This document shows positions 1,080 to 62,570 of a stretch of DNA of 64,000 bases, in pieces. Origin of the DNA: Pelagibacteraceae bacterium AG-414-E02 (GTDB taxonomy: Bacteria > Pseudomonadota > Alphaproteobacteria > Pelagibacterales > Pelagibacteraceae); NCBI GenBank assembly GCA_003214615.1, contig QCLK01000005.1, positions 62,001 through 126,000 on the forward strand, read 5' to 3'. Each line of letters begins with the position of its first letter. Position 1 is the first letter of the stretch. The notes under the pieces are model-generated. The model was not told the origin of the DNA. It worked only from the letters and a program-made list of their open reading frames with translations, and did not search any database. The translations under genes were made by a program, and so were the position numbers.

Positions 1080-1631
1080 TTATTTTTTCTTTTTTTTTAA
1101 TTCTTCTTTTTTGAGTTCAGTTTTTGCAGCTTCTTTTTTAGGCTCTGCTTTTGGAGCTGCTGCTTTAGGTTCCTCTTTTTTAGGCTCTGCCTTTAATTCT
1201 TGAGTCTCAACAGAAGGTTCCTTCACAATTTCTGCTTCGGGGGCTTGCTCAGATATATCTACACCAATTCTTTTTTTTATTTTTTCTGAAATTCTAGCTG
1301 ACTTACCTTTTCGATCTCTTAAATAATATAACTTTGCCTTTCTAACCTCGCCCGAGCGTATTACCTTAATAGAACCAATAACGGGACTATATAAAGCAAA
1401 TGTTCTTTCAACACCTTCGCCAAATGAAATTTTTCTCACTGTAAATGAAGAATTTATATTTCTATTTTTCTTTGCAATACATACTCCTTCAAAATATTGA
1501 ATTCTTTCCCTTTTTCCCTCAACAATTCTTACTCCAATTTTAATAGTATCTCCTGCAAAAAATTCAGGAATTTTCTTTTTTGCTAAAATTTTTTTTACTA
1601 TCGAGTTATTTATTTCTTCAATATTTTTCAT
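1080..1631 (-). CDS. rplS: 50S ribosomal protein L19 with Lys/Ala/Pro/Glu-rich C-terminal extension
   Basis: Core [63 protein letters not shown] is L19; last ~55 aa low complexity. Confidence 0.96.
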
Positions 1632-2317
1632 TTGTTTTTCTTATATTTTTCCCATAAATCAGGACGCCGGCGTCGTGTTATATCCTCTGATTGATGTAAA
1701 CGCCAGCCTTTAATTTTAGCGTGATCTCCAGTTAATAATACATCGGGAACATCCTTTTTTTCCCATTTTTGAGGTTTAGTATACTGCGGATATTCTAATA
1801 AATTCTTTTCAAAGCTTTCTTCGGTTAAAGACTCAAAATTTCCTACCACACCTGGAATTAATCTAACCACTGTATCAATTATTAGTAGGGCACCAATTTC
1901 GCCCCCTGACAAAACAAAATCTCCAACGCTCACTTCTTCTATATTTCTTGTTTCTAACAATCTTTGATCTACTCCTTCAAAATGTCCACATATAATGTTT
2001 ATATTTTTCTCTAACATTTTTTTTGCACTACTTTGGTCAAACTTTTTTCCTTTTGGTGATAAGTAAATAGTTGTTTCATTTTTGCTATTAATATTGTTGT
2101 CCAAAGAATTAGCTATAATATCTGCTCGCATTAACATTCCACTGCCTCCTCCAAAAGGAGTATCATCCACGGTCTTATGTTTATCTAGAGCATAATCTCT
2201 AATATTTACTACTTCCAATGACCATAGTTTTTTTTCAAGTGCTTTTTTATATAAACCACTACCTAATGGTCCTGGAAATAATTCAGGGTATAAAGTAAAT
2301 ACTTTTGCCTTCCACAT
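1628..2317 (-). CDS. trmD: tRNA (guanine-N1)-methyltransferase
   Basis: [27 protein letters not shown]..., [43 protein letters not shown]. Confidence 0.97.
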
Positions 2318-2827
2318 TTATTTTTTCTTTGGCTCTTCTTTCTTTGGTTCGGTTGTTGCAGCTTCTTTTTTTGGTTCCTCTTTTTTAGGCTCTGCTTTTG
2401 GCGCTGCTGCTTTAGGTTCCTCTTTTTTAGGCTCTGCTTTTGGCGCTTCTTTCTTTGGTTCAGTTGTTGCAGCTTCTTTTTTTGGTGCTTCGGCTGCTGG
2501 TTTTCCACCTTCTGACTTATCTTTTTTTCTATCTTTTTTAGGAATTGCCTTAAGTGGATTATTTCCTTTAGGTGGCATTGGATAAAGTTGAGCTTCTCCT
2601 AATATTCTAGAAACTCTTAAAGTTGGTTTAGCACCCTTGCTAATCCAATGTTTTATTCTCTCTGCTTCTAAATTTACTCTCTCTTTTTTTGTTTTCGGAA
2701 GTAATGGATTAAAAAAACCTACCTTTTCAATAAATCTACCGTCTCTTGGGAATCTACTGTCCGCAACCACAATCTTATAAACTGGTCTCTTTTTAGCTCC
2801 AGCCATTGATAATCTAATTTTTAACAT
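2318..2827 (-). CDS. rpsP: 30S ribosomal protein S16 with repetitive C-terminal extension
   Basis: [43 protein letters not shown]-terminal (KKEEPKAEP)-like repeats. Confidence 0.96.
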
Positions 2828-2847: not shown

Positions 2848-3168
2848 TTATTTCGGCAACTTTGTAGCACCAGTTTCCATATAAACAACTTTTCCATCTT
2901 TATATTTATAGTAAGTCATTACAGCTTCTTTATTTCCATCTTTATAACTTGTAAAAGCATGCCCGAATCCAACTTCATCATTTTCAAAAAGCACTCTAAC
3001 TTTTTCCATTTGGACATCTTTCATGCCTAACCATTTTAAAATATCTTGTTTACCTAGTTTTTTTCCAGATGCGTGCATTAAAAATTGATAATCATCATGT
3101 ATCAACTTTTCTCCTGCAGCCACGTCTCCATCGTTTACTATTTTTGACATTTTTTCTATTATTGACAT
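2848..3168 (-). CDS. Small SnoaL/NTF2-like protein (tentative)
   Basis: 106-aa ORF; MSIIEKMSKIVNDGDVAAGEKLIHDDYQFLMHASGKKLGKQDILKWLG resembles NTF2-like fold proteins. Confidence 0.6.
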   Translation of the reverse strand: MSIIEKMSKIVNDGDVAAGEKLIHDDYQFLMHASGKKLGKQDILKWLGMKDVQMEKVRVLFENDEVGFGHAFTSYKDGNKEAVMTYYKYKDGKVVYMETGATKLPK

Positions 3169-3180
3169 ATTTTTTCCTTT

Positions 3181-4527
3181 CTATTTTAGTTGGTTAAGAA
3201 TATCTGGAGGTATCCCGTCTTTATGACCACCTTTAGACATTTTTTTCATCATGTTGGTCATCATTTTAAATTGTTTTAACAATTTATTTATAGTGGCTGT
3301 ATCTGCTCCTGAGCCACTAGAAATTCTTTTTTTTCTTGATCCATTAATAATTTTTGGATCCAATCTCTCTTCTTTAGTCATTGACAAAATAATTGCTTCA
3401 TTAATTTTAATAATATTTTCATCTATATTCGCGTTATCCATTTGTTTTTTTATTTTAGATACTCCTGGAAGCATGGATAATACTCCCTCCATTCCACCCA
3501 TTTTTTTCATTTGTCTTAGTTGGTTTAAGTAATCTTCCATAGAAAAAGAACCGGACTTTAAACTTTCTTCGGTTTTTTTAATTTTTTCTTCATCAAGATC
3601 CTGTGTCGCTTTTTCTACTAGAGAAACAACATCTCCCATGCCTAAAATTCTATTAGCTATTCTATCTGGATAAAAAACATCAAATTGTTCAATTTTTTCA
3701 CCAGTTCCCATAAATTTAATTGGAGTATTTGTTGCAAATTTCATACTTAATGCAGCACCTCCTCTACCATCTCCATCTACTCTAGTTAAAATAATGCTAC
3801 TTAAATCTACAGCTTTTTTAAATTCTTGAGCTACATTGACAGCTACTTGTCCTGTTAAAGAATCTGCAACTAAAATTGTTTCGGTTGGATTTGTTAAAGA
3901 TTTAATTTCTTTAATTTCATTCATCATAGATAAATCAATTTGAGTTCTGCCAGCAGTATCAAAAATTATTGTATCAACTCCACTTAATGATGCTGCATTA
4001 AGAGCTCGTTTAGCAATATCAATTGGCAATTGATCTTTAACTATAGGCAAAGTTTGTATTGAATTTTTTTCACCTAATATATTTAATTGTTCTTGCGCTG
4101 CAGGCCTGTAAACATCCAAACTAACTAGTAAAGATTTTTTTTTGTTATTTTTTTCTATATATTTGGCTAGTTTTGCTGCCGTTGTTGTTTTTCCTGATCC
4201 TTGTAATCCAACTAACATTAAACAAACTGGAGGAACAGCATTAAGATTTATTTCAGAATTAGTATCGCCGAGAATTTTTACAATCTCATCAAAAACAACT
4301 TTAATTATCATTTGGCCAGGTGTTGTTGACCTAATAATTTCCTGACCTATTGCCTTAGGTTTAATATTTTTAATTAATTCTTTTGCAACTGGTAATGCTA
4401 CATCTGCTTCTAATAATGCTTGACGTATTTTTCGTAAACCCTCATCGACCTGTGCTTCGTCAAGTGAAGGTGCTTTTTTTAAAGAACTAAAAATTTCTTC
4501 AAACTTATTTGTTAAATTTTCAAACAT
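3181..4527 (-). CDS. ffh: Signal recognition particle protein Ffh
   Basis: GLQGSGKTTTAAKLAKY, DVYRPAAQEQL, DTAGRTQIDLSMMNE, Met-rich C-terminal M domain. Confidence 0.98.
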   Translation of the reverse strand: MFENLTNKFEEIFSSLKKAPSLDEAQVDEGLRKIRQALLEADVALPVAKELIKNIKPKAIGQEIIRSTTPGQMIIKVVFDEIVKILGDTNSEINLNAVPPVCLMLVGLQGSGKTTTAAKLAKYIEKNNKKKSLLVSLDVYRPAAQEQLNILGEKNSIQTLPIVKDQLPIDIAKRALNAASLSGVDTIIFDTAGRTQIDLSMMNEIKEIKSLTNPTETILVADSLTGQVAVNVAQEFKKAVDLSSIILTRVDGDGRGGAALSMKFATNTPIKFMGTGEKIEQFDVFYPDRIANRILGMGDVVSLVEKATQDLDEEKIKKTEESLKSGSFSMEDYLNQLRQMKKMGGMEGVLSMLPGVSKIKKQMDNANIDENIIKINEAIILSMTKEERLDPKIINGSRKKRISSGSGADTATINKLLKQFKMMTNMMKKMSKGGHKDGIPPDILNQLK

Positions 4528-4544
4528 AATTTATTTATTCCAAC

Positions 4545-4633
4545 AAAAATCGCACTAGTGGGCGAACCTTCGCTGACTAGTGTCGATCCCCTTGTTGCCA
4601 AGAGCACCGCAAAAACTATCTTTTGCGGGAATA
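4545..4633 (-). ncRNA. Candidate structured small RNA or 5' leader of ffh (three consecutive hairpins)
   Basis: Minus strand: CCGCAAAA(N6)TTTTGCGG; CTCTTG-GCAA-CAAGGG; ATCG-a-CACTAGT...GCGAAGGTTCGC...ACTAGTG-CGAT followed by TTTTT. Hand-folded only. Confidence 0.55.
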
Positions 4634-4639
4634 GCGAGC

Positions 4640-4668
4640 AAAATACATATTGAGGTTTAAAAAGTCAA
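4640..4668 (-). promoter_or_regulatory. Sigma70-type promoter for the hairpin RNA / ffh
   Basis: Minus strand TTGACT-N17-TATTTT. Confidence 0.5.
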
Positions 4669-4691
4669 TCAATAAAGATAAAACTTAAAAT

Positions 4692-5519
4692 ATGAATAAT
4701 TTAGATGCTTATAAAATGGACGGATTGGGTAATGACTTCATTATATTTGATAAAAGGCAAAAACCTTTTTCCCTTACTAAGGAACAAATAATCAAAATTT
4801 CAGATAGAAATAACATTGGATGTGATCAAGTAATTTTTATTGATAAAGATAAAAGCAGCAATGTCTTCTTAAAATTTTATAACTCGGATGGTGGAGAAAT
4901 TTCTGCATGTGGAAATGGTAGTAGATGTGCTGCATATTTATTGATGAGAGAAAATAATAGTAAAAAAATATCTTTAAAAACAAAAGCTGGAATTTTGGAA
5001 GCTGAACTAAATGAAAAAAATTTAGTAAAAATAAATATGGGTCAACCTAATTTTGTATGGGATAAAATACCATTGTTAAAAAAAATGGATAATAAAAATT
5101 TAAAAATAAAAATTAATAGTAATGACGGAAATGAACTTGTAGGAGGATTTGCTTTAAGTGTTGGAAATCCACATGTGGTTTTTTTTGTTAAAAATTATAA
5201 TCAATTTAATTTGCAAGAAATTGGTCCTAAAATAGAAAACCACAATTATTTTCCCGAAAAATGCAATGTAACTTTAGCTAGTGTTAAAAATAAAAAACAC
5301 ATGAAAATAAAAGTTTGGGAACGCGGTGCTGGTTTAACTAAGGCATGCGGAACTGCTGCGTGTGCTGCGGCAGTAGCGGGTGTAGATTTAAAATTTTGTG
5401 AAAGAAATGTAGACATTGAATTTGACGAGGGATTATTAAACATCGACTGGCAAAAAGATAATAATGTCTATATGACAGGCAAAGTTTCAGAAGTTAAAAA
5501 AATTACAGTTAGTATTTAA
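4692..5519 (+). CDS. dapF: Diaminopimelate epimerase
   Basis: MDGLGNDFIIFD, SACGNGSRCAAYLL, GAGLTKACGTAACAAAVAG. Confidence 0.97.
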   Translation: MNNLDAYKMDGLGNDFIIFDKRQKPFSLTKEQIIKISDRNNIGCDQVIFIDKDKSSNVFLKFYNSDGGEISACGNGSRCAAYLLMRENNSKKISLKTKAGILEAELNEKNLVKINMGQPNFVWDKIPLLKKMDNKNLKIKINSNDGNELVGGFALSVGNPHVVFFVKNYNQFNLQEIGPKIENHNYFPEKCNVTLASVKNKKHMKIKVWERGAGLTKACGTAACAAAVAGVDLKFCERNVDIEFDEGLLNIDWQKDNNVYMTGKVSEVKKITVSI

Positions 5520-62009: not shown

Positions 62010-62570
62010 ATGAAAAAAATTTTTTTTTTTAATCAAAAATCATTTCTTGATCAACTGGGTGTTTGTATCTCAAAAAATAATTATGAAGAGTCTTTACAAA
62101 AATTAAAAGAATTATGCATTAATAGTCCGTTTAATACTCAAGCTTTTATCCAAGTTTTTATAAGAGCATGGTGTGAAAAAATTCTTAATATGTTAAATAA
62201 TGATGCATTTGAAAATGCGAGGTTAAGAATTAATTCTCTTTATATGCTAATTAAGCATAATAGTTATTTGAATAAACTTATAAATATATATTTTGAAAAA
62301 ATTAATAAAAAAGAAATTTTTTCAAACCTAAAAGATAATGATAAGGCAATATATTTATCAATGCAATCACAATACTTTTACCAAATCAATAAACACGATG
62401 ATGCAGAAAAATGTGTTCAACAATGTCTTGATATAATAATTAAAATTTCTAAAAGAAAAAAAAATTCTATAGATTTTTGGTTATTATTACAAAAAAGCCT
62501 CAAAAATGTAAAAAACAAAAAAAAATCTGAAATATTTTTAAAAAAAATTTTGGAAAATTATGAAAATTAA
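62010..62570 (+). CDS. Hypothetical protein (possible helical-repeat)
   Basis: 186-aa ORF between oxygenase and carbamoyltransferase; no recognised motif. Confidence 0.55.
   Translation: MKKIFFFNQKSFLDQLGVCISKNNYEESLQKLKELCINSPFNTQAFIQVFIRAWCEKILNMLNNDAFENARLRINSLYMLIKHNSYLNKLINIYFEKINKKEIFSNLKDNDKAIYLSMQSQYFYQINKHDDAEKCVQQCLDIIIKISKRKKNSIDFWLLLQKSLKNVKNKKKSEIFLKKILENYEN

Follow-up and report, generated by a model that had tools for sequence, protein, structure and literature searches.

The structured RNA in the gap between dapF and ffh of Pelagibacteraceae bacterium AG-414-E02 is, as judged from its sequence context, the 5' leader of the ffh-rpsP-trmD-rplS mRNA. The family to which it belongs, RF01793, is already known; new are a larger structure, a wider spread in the class and a link to rpsP, which appears to be the gene partner of the RNA instead of ffh. 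The features of the locus in the window, i.e. the whole 64,000-nucleotide stretch of DNA analyzed, are as follows.

4692..5519, plus strand: dapF, the divergent neighbor (TIGR00652)
4663..4668, minus strand: TTGACT, the -35 box in the promoter of the ffh operon (TTGAC precedes the motif at 112/112 loci)
4640..4645, minus strand: -10-like box TATTTT, 17 nt from the -35 box (TAnnTT in relatives; start site deduced)
4607..4628, minus strand: hairpin H1, CCGCAAAA/TTTTGCGG, with its 3' arm CGG common to P2 (93% of cells paired; 4626-4609 covaries)
4539..4610, minus strand: match of the extended model R1 (P2, H3 and tail), 74.1 bits, the window sequence being part of the R1 seed
4584..4609, minus strand: helix P2, CGGU-n-(CUCUUG GCAA CAAGGG)-n-AUCG (RNAalifold, pair counts and covariation ranking)
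4545..4597, minus strand: RF01793 match, 3' half of the RNA only (Rfam, 54.3 bits)
4553..4582, minus strand: helix H3, the RF01793 core, CACTAGT..GCGAAGGTTCGC..ACTAGTG, with the invariant mismatch C4575·C4560
4539..4552, minus strand: 3' tail with UGUUGG at its end (a YUUGG-like sequence in relatives); the lineage-specific T5 run at 4549-4545 lies within it
3181..4527, minus strand: ffh, first gene of the operon, ATG at 4527 (TIGR00959, 562 bits)
2848..3168, minus strand: small ORF of 106 amino acids between ffh and rpsP (0 NCBIfam or Pfam matches at the thresholds used)
2318..2827, minus strand: rpsP, ribosomal protein S16 (TIGR00002)
1628..2317, minus strand: trmD (TIGR00088)
1080..1631, minus strand: rplS, ribosomal protein L19 (TIGR01024)

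The initial annotation had described a structured RNA at 4545-4668 on the minus strand, and its sequence, coordinates and hairpins proved to be as described. The 106-nt RNA folded with -38.9 kcal/mol compared with -23.1 ± 3.1 kcal/mol for shuffled sequences (z = -5.05), and none of 200 shuffles was as good. No known family had been recognized, but the locus is a member of RF01793, the ffh motif: it scored 54.3 bits against a cut-off of 35 and carries the hallmark of the family, a bulged hairpin upstream of ffh (4527) with the conserved cytosines C4575 and C4560. An Infernal match to a known family had been named beforehand as the result that would speak against the annotation; such a match was obtained from RF01793, not from SRP RNA. 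SRP RNA (RF00169) is alike in size and in its neighboring ffh gene. It differs in that no RF00169 match was seen at the locus even at E ≤ 5, and the candidate SRP RNA of this genome lies elsewhere (G000:C1:364099-364192; 38.6 bits, just below the cut-off of 40). The earlier remark that the RNA is without an SRP signature was thus correct.

The ffh motif was introduced by Meyer et al. in 2009 as one bulged hairpin that precedes ffh and has no known function, and was reported in Candidatus Pelagibacter, Rhodobacterales, Sphingomonadales and Rhizobiales and as absent from Rhodospirillales and Caulobacterales (PMC2704228). An "ffH leader RNA" appeared in RNA-seq of Bartonella (PMC7717549), and RF01793 was recorded in Mesorhizobium (PMC5596092). 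A literature search for a function of the RNA found none. The window locus has the same hairpin, H3, at the same site upstream of ffh as the published motif (PMC2704228). The structure described here extends this single hairpin by P2, H1 and the YUUGG-like tail, and a subtype was found that carries C-G at the position of an A·C mismatch.

Covariation supports this larger structure. RNAalifold, run without an input structure on 32 SAR11 sequences (alignment A2), returned P2 and H3. All three hairpins of the initial annotation are present in the sequence, but the conserved structure consists of P2 (CGGU..AUCG) and H3 and not of three separate hairpins; the CTCTTG-GCAA-CAAGGG hairpin that it had seen forms the inner part of P2. 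The outer pairs of P2 run from 4609-4584 to 4606-4587 and the inner ones from 4604-4589 to 4599-4594. With the outer stem CGGU/AUCG included, 98.8% of cells pair and five of the eight pairs changed on both sides within SAR11. The extension of the third hairpin by ATCG(a)...CGAT exists in the window sequence and in its minimum free energy fold, but received no support when the 32 SAR11 sequences were compared: of its four pairs, two are broken in 10-13 sequences, and none shows a change on both sides. The ATCG strand pairs instead with the upstream CGGT as part of P2.

Covariation was ranked all-against-all in 68 sequences with a tree-based null. The P2 pair 4604-4589 came first and exceeded all simulated values (E ~0), followed by 4602-4591, the H3 pair 4579-4556 and the triple 4626-4609-4584, with E values of 0.05-1.3. 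Because 4604-4589 alone passed the strict null, support for the structure is drawn from three sources, the covariation ranking, the pair counts and the other lineages. P2 and H3 recur in GC-rich relatives with many base changes, and in alignment A4 both-side changes were seen in 14/20 pairs (score 0.55 vs 0.20 for shuffles). Compensatory changes across relatives, the lack of which would have counted against the initial annotation, are therefore found both in SAR11 P2 and in A4. Clade MED-G09, the P2 variants of which were left out when P2 was defined, displays the graded series CGGUCC/..AUCG, CAGUCC/GGAUUG and CAAUCC/GGAUUG. When P2 was compared with shuffled upstream sequence at non-SAR11 loci, the mean z was -2.25, and at most one of 30 shuffles was as good in 24 of the 41; that this z is moderate is partly due to the variability of P2 at these loci.

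Within H3, the C·C mismatch is present in 36/36 seed sequences (alignment A5). The adjoining A4574·C4561 alternates with C-G, G-U and U-A in other lineages and defines subtypes, one with A·C and others with C-G, G-U or U-A. H1 and P2 are mutually exclusive at their base, where both use the strand CGG: C4609 pairs either with G4626 (H1) or with G4584 (P2). A joint change of this triple was seen on two branches only, both in SAR11, so that an H1/P2 switch with a function is possible but has slender support; H1 is not kept in this form in MED-G09. A long-range helix between a 5' UUCC and GGAA of the tail, suggested by single-sequence folds, was rejected; by eye it is not kept, as the tail varies while UUCC stays. 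Some genomes (L038, L045) have a further hairpin, CAAAACC...GGTTTTG, directly after H3.

Among the same 389 alphaproteobacterial genomes, RF01793 matched 112, R1 matched 129, and model R2, which consists of H3 and the tail and includes the second subtype, matched 248, a count that is not independent because the R2 seed was drawn partly from these genomes. The spread in the class is thus wider than the 112 genomes that RF01793 reaches. Matches occur nearly always once per genome. All of 20 new R1 matches lie 4-76 nt upstream of ffh; of 20 new R2 matches outside the seed, 19 precede ffh, and the remaining one precedes rpsP.

The place of the RNA in the transcript follows from the surrounding genes. 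The operon of the window reads ffh-rpsP-trmD-rplS, compared with ffh-rpsP-rimM-trmD-rplS in most other Alphaproteobacteria. As dapF is divergent in 76/76 SAR11 loci, ffh can be transcribed only from the dapF/ffh gap, and the room for its promoter is confined to 4528-4691, with the dapF start on the other side. A second promoter would not fit downstream of the RNA: the distance from the end of H3 to the ATG of ffh is 25 nt in the window, and that from the end of the Rfam match to the ATG is 14-28 nt at nearly all SAR11 loci. The promoter-like signal of the initial annotation, TTGACT-17-TATTTT, is present, and all loci compared have TTGAC ahead of the motif (71/71 from SAR11, 41/41 from other Alphaproteobacteria); the pattern by itself does not exceed chance (2 found vs 2.1 expected). 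The terminator-like signal fared worse. T5 is there at 4549-4545, and most members of the genus to which the window belongs have it behind H3, but a run of at least five T after H3 occurs in only 16/71 SAR11 and 5/41 other loci, and a terminator scan of the locus found none at its threshold. A conserved stem with a conserved U-run, the mark of an independent small RNA, was accordingly not found.

Two of the options raised by the initial annotation can be judged from these data. A regulatory leader stands as far as the leader position is concerned, whereas two facts make an independent, terminated small RNA unlikely: the U-run lacks conservation, and a separate promoter for ffh would not fit. 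Rfam types RF01793 as sRNA, small-RNA reads have been reported (PMC2704228), and a prediction in Sinorhizobium placed a candidate of ~120 nt, sm5, at dapF<ffh> (PMC2573895), all of which would suit a trans-acting RNA made as a short transcript by termination or processing. Since in SAR11 the stretch from H3 to the ATG is too short for another promoter and transcription of ffh must therefore cross the RNA, we regard such an independent RNA as very unlikely; the leader may be processed into a small RNA.

Several observations were made on the genes of the operon. In the SAR11 family of the window trmD follows rpsP without rimM, which is present in family f2 of the same order and in other Alphaproteobacteria. 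The rpsP product (window 2318-2827) has a long low-complexity C-terminal tail with AEPKKEE-like repeats in SAR11; such a tail is also seen in MED-G09 (APAPAAEVAP-like; L122:7222-7737) and in genome G458.

Downstream regions in other families contained ffh-rpsP-(rimM)-trmD in 19/19 cases, with rplS inside the fetched stretch in 17. Two lineages, MED-G09 and G458, split ffh from rpsP and hence separate the two possible partners of the RNA. MED-G09 comprised 18 genomes (G157, G263, G343, G411, G474 and G503-G515; family f40), and the motif was found in 14 of them. At the loci measured, rpsP follows the motif after 65-72 nt without an intervening ffh, dapF is divergent, and the operon reads rpsP-rimM-trmD-rplS. 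G458 yielded one copy, located after ffh (end at 62090) and before rpsP and equipped with its own TTGACT...CTAGGTT promoter; a search of 12 kb showed no second copy ahead of ffh. After this motif, at G458:C13:62201-62313, a GCGTTTTGCGTTGGG-like tail unit is present in about three tandem repeats before rpsP. Because the motif stands on rpsP in MED-G09 and between ffh and rpsP in G458, the RNA is deduced to track rpsP rather than ffh, a link that comes from these two lineages, which are mostly metagenome assemblies.

MED-G09 is also informative about ffh itself. A protein with an SRP54 domain (Ffh or FtsY) was above the Pfam cut-off in 0/18 genomes, one sub-threshold match reaching 20 bits, and the same search detected such proteins in 14/14 positive-control genomes. 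SRP RNA was not found in the five MED-G09 genomes tested, SecA was detected in 15/18, and BLAST with the Ffh of the window, a search without a positive control, found nothing in 13 genomes. The whole SRP pathway has apparently been lost in this marine alphaproteobacterial clade; a literature search for SRP loss in MED-G09 returned no report. dapF and the radical-SAM gene after dapF are kept in MED-G09, and ftsY does not follow. The family name would suggest a leader that responds to Ffh or SRP. The motif does stand upstream of ffh in nearly all genomes, and the 2009 paper raised an Ffh-linked role as possible while seeing no likeness to the Ffh binding site (PMC2704228). Its retention in MED-G09 and its place downstream of ffh in G458 make an Ffh-responsive leader extremely improbable.

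A leader that responds to S16 or L19 should stand at the 5' end of an operon that contains the gene of its ligand, and the RNA described here does precede an operon with rpsP and rplS. Like the autogenous leaders of the S15, L20 and S4 types, it is a structured 5' leader of a ribosomal-protein operon, its conserved core being unpaired or mismatched; unlike them, its ligand is putative and no likeness to rRNA was found. Mimicry of rRNA is the usual sign of ribosomal-protein leaders, but many genuine ones are without obvious likeness, so that its lack weighs little. Neither model gave a match above noise in E. coli rRNA (rrnB operon, 16S/23S). We infer that the leader is probably regulated by a ribosomal protein, for which S16 would be the first candidate because it is the nearest constant partner and because an S16 leader has a precedent in Flavobacteria. 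There, a candidate was proposed directly upstream of rpsP, usually with rimM (PMC7247131). The likeness is by position before rpsP alone; the phylum is another one, and in Alphaproteobacteria ffh usually intervenes. We give an autogenous leader of the S16 type a nearly even chance.

In such a mechanism, transcription of the leader would start from the TTGACT-17-TATTTT promoter. The conserved core is formed by P2, H3 with its invariant C·C and the YUUGG-like tail, with H1 competing with P2 for CGG. Free S16, or as second choice L19 from the same operon, would bind P2/H3, and the binding would lower expression of the operon, perhaps at the level of translation, termination or decay. As nearly all genomes have ffh as the first gene, with 11-284 nt between H3 and the ffh start, no single route for blocking translation is obvious. 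The ligand might also be L19 or TrmD instead of S16, since trmD and rplS were present in every examined operon that reached far enough; S16 as the nearest constant partner and the G458 motif directly before rpsP speak, weakly, for S16, and we consider this exchange of ligand distinctly unlikely. A different possibility is a leader with no protein ligand; P2/H3 would then either shield the 5' end or influence RNA polymerase on the long operon, by attenuation or antitermination. The strong conserved structure near the transcript start, the mutual exclusion of H1 and P2 as a potential switch and the T5 run in the window's genus would be in keeping with it. The U-run is not conserved beyond this genus, however, the H1/P2 triple underwent only two independent joint changes, and MED-G09 does without H1 in this form. 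We consider this explanation unlikely, although it retains some probability.

RF01793 may be misnamed. We propose, tentatively and at somewhat less than even chance, that it is a class-wide regulated leader of rpsP(S16)-trmD-rplS with a ribosomal-protein ligand, which persists in SRP-less MED-G09. If the S16/L19 operon rather than ffh is the partner of the RNA, the question of its function can be addressed directly by testing three candidate proteins for binding, and the larger structural model offers the invariant C·C mismatch as a target for mutation. A lack of both SRP protein and SRP RNA, neither of which was detected in MED-G09, would be unexpected outside the known reduced symbionts.
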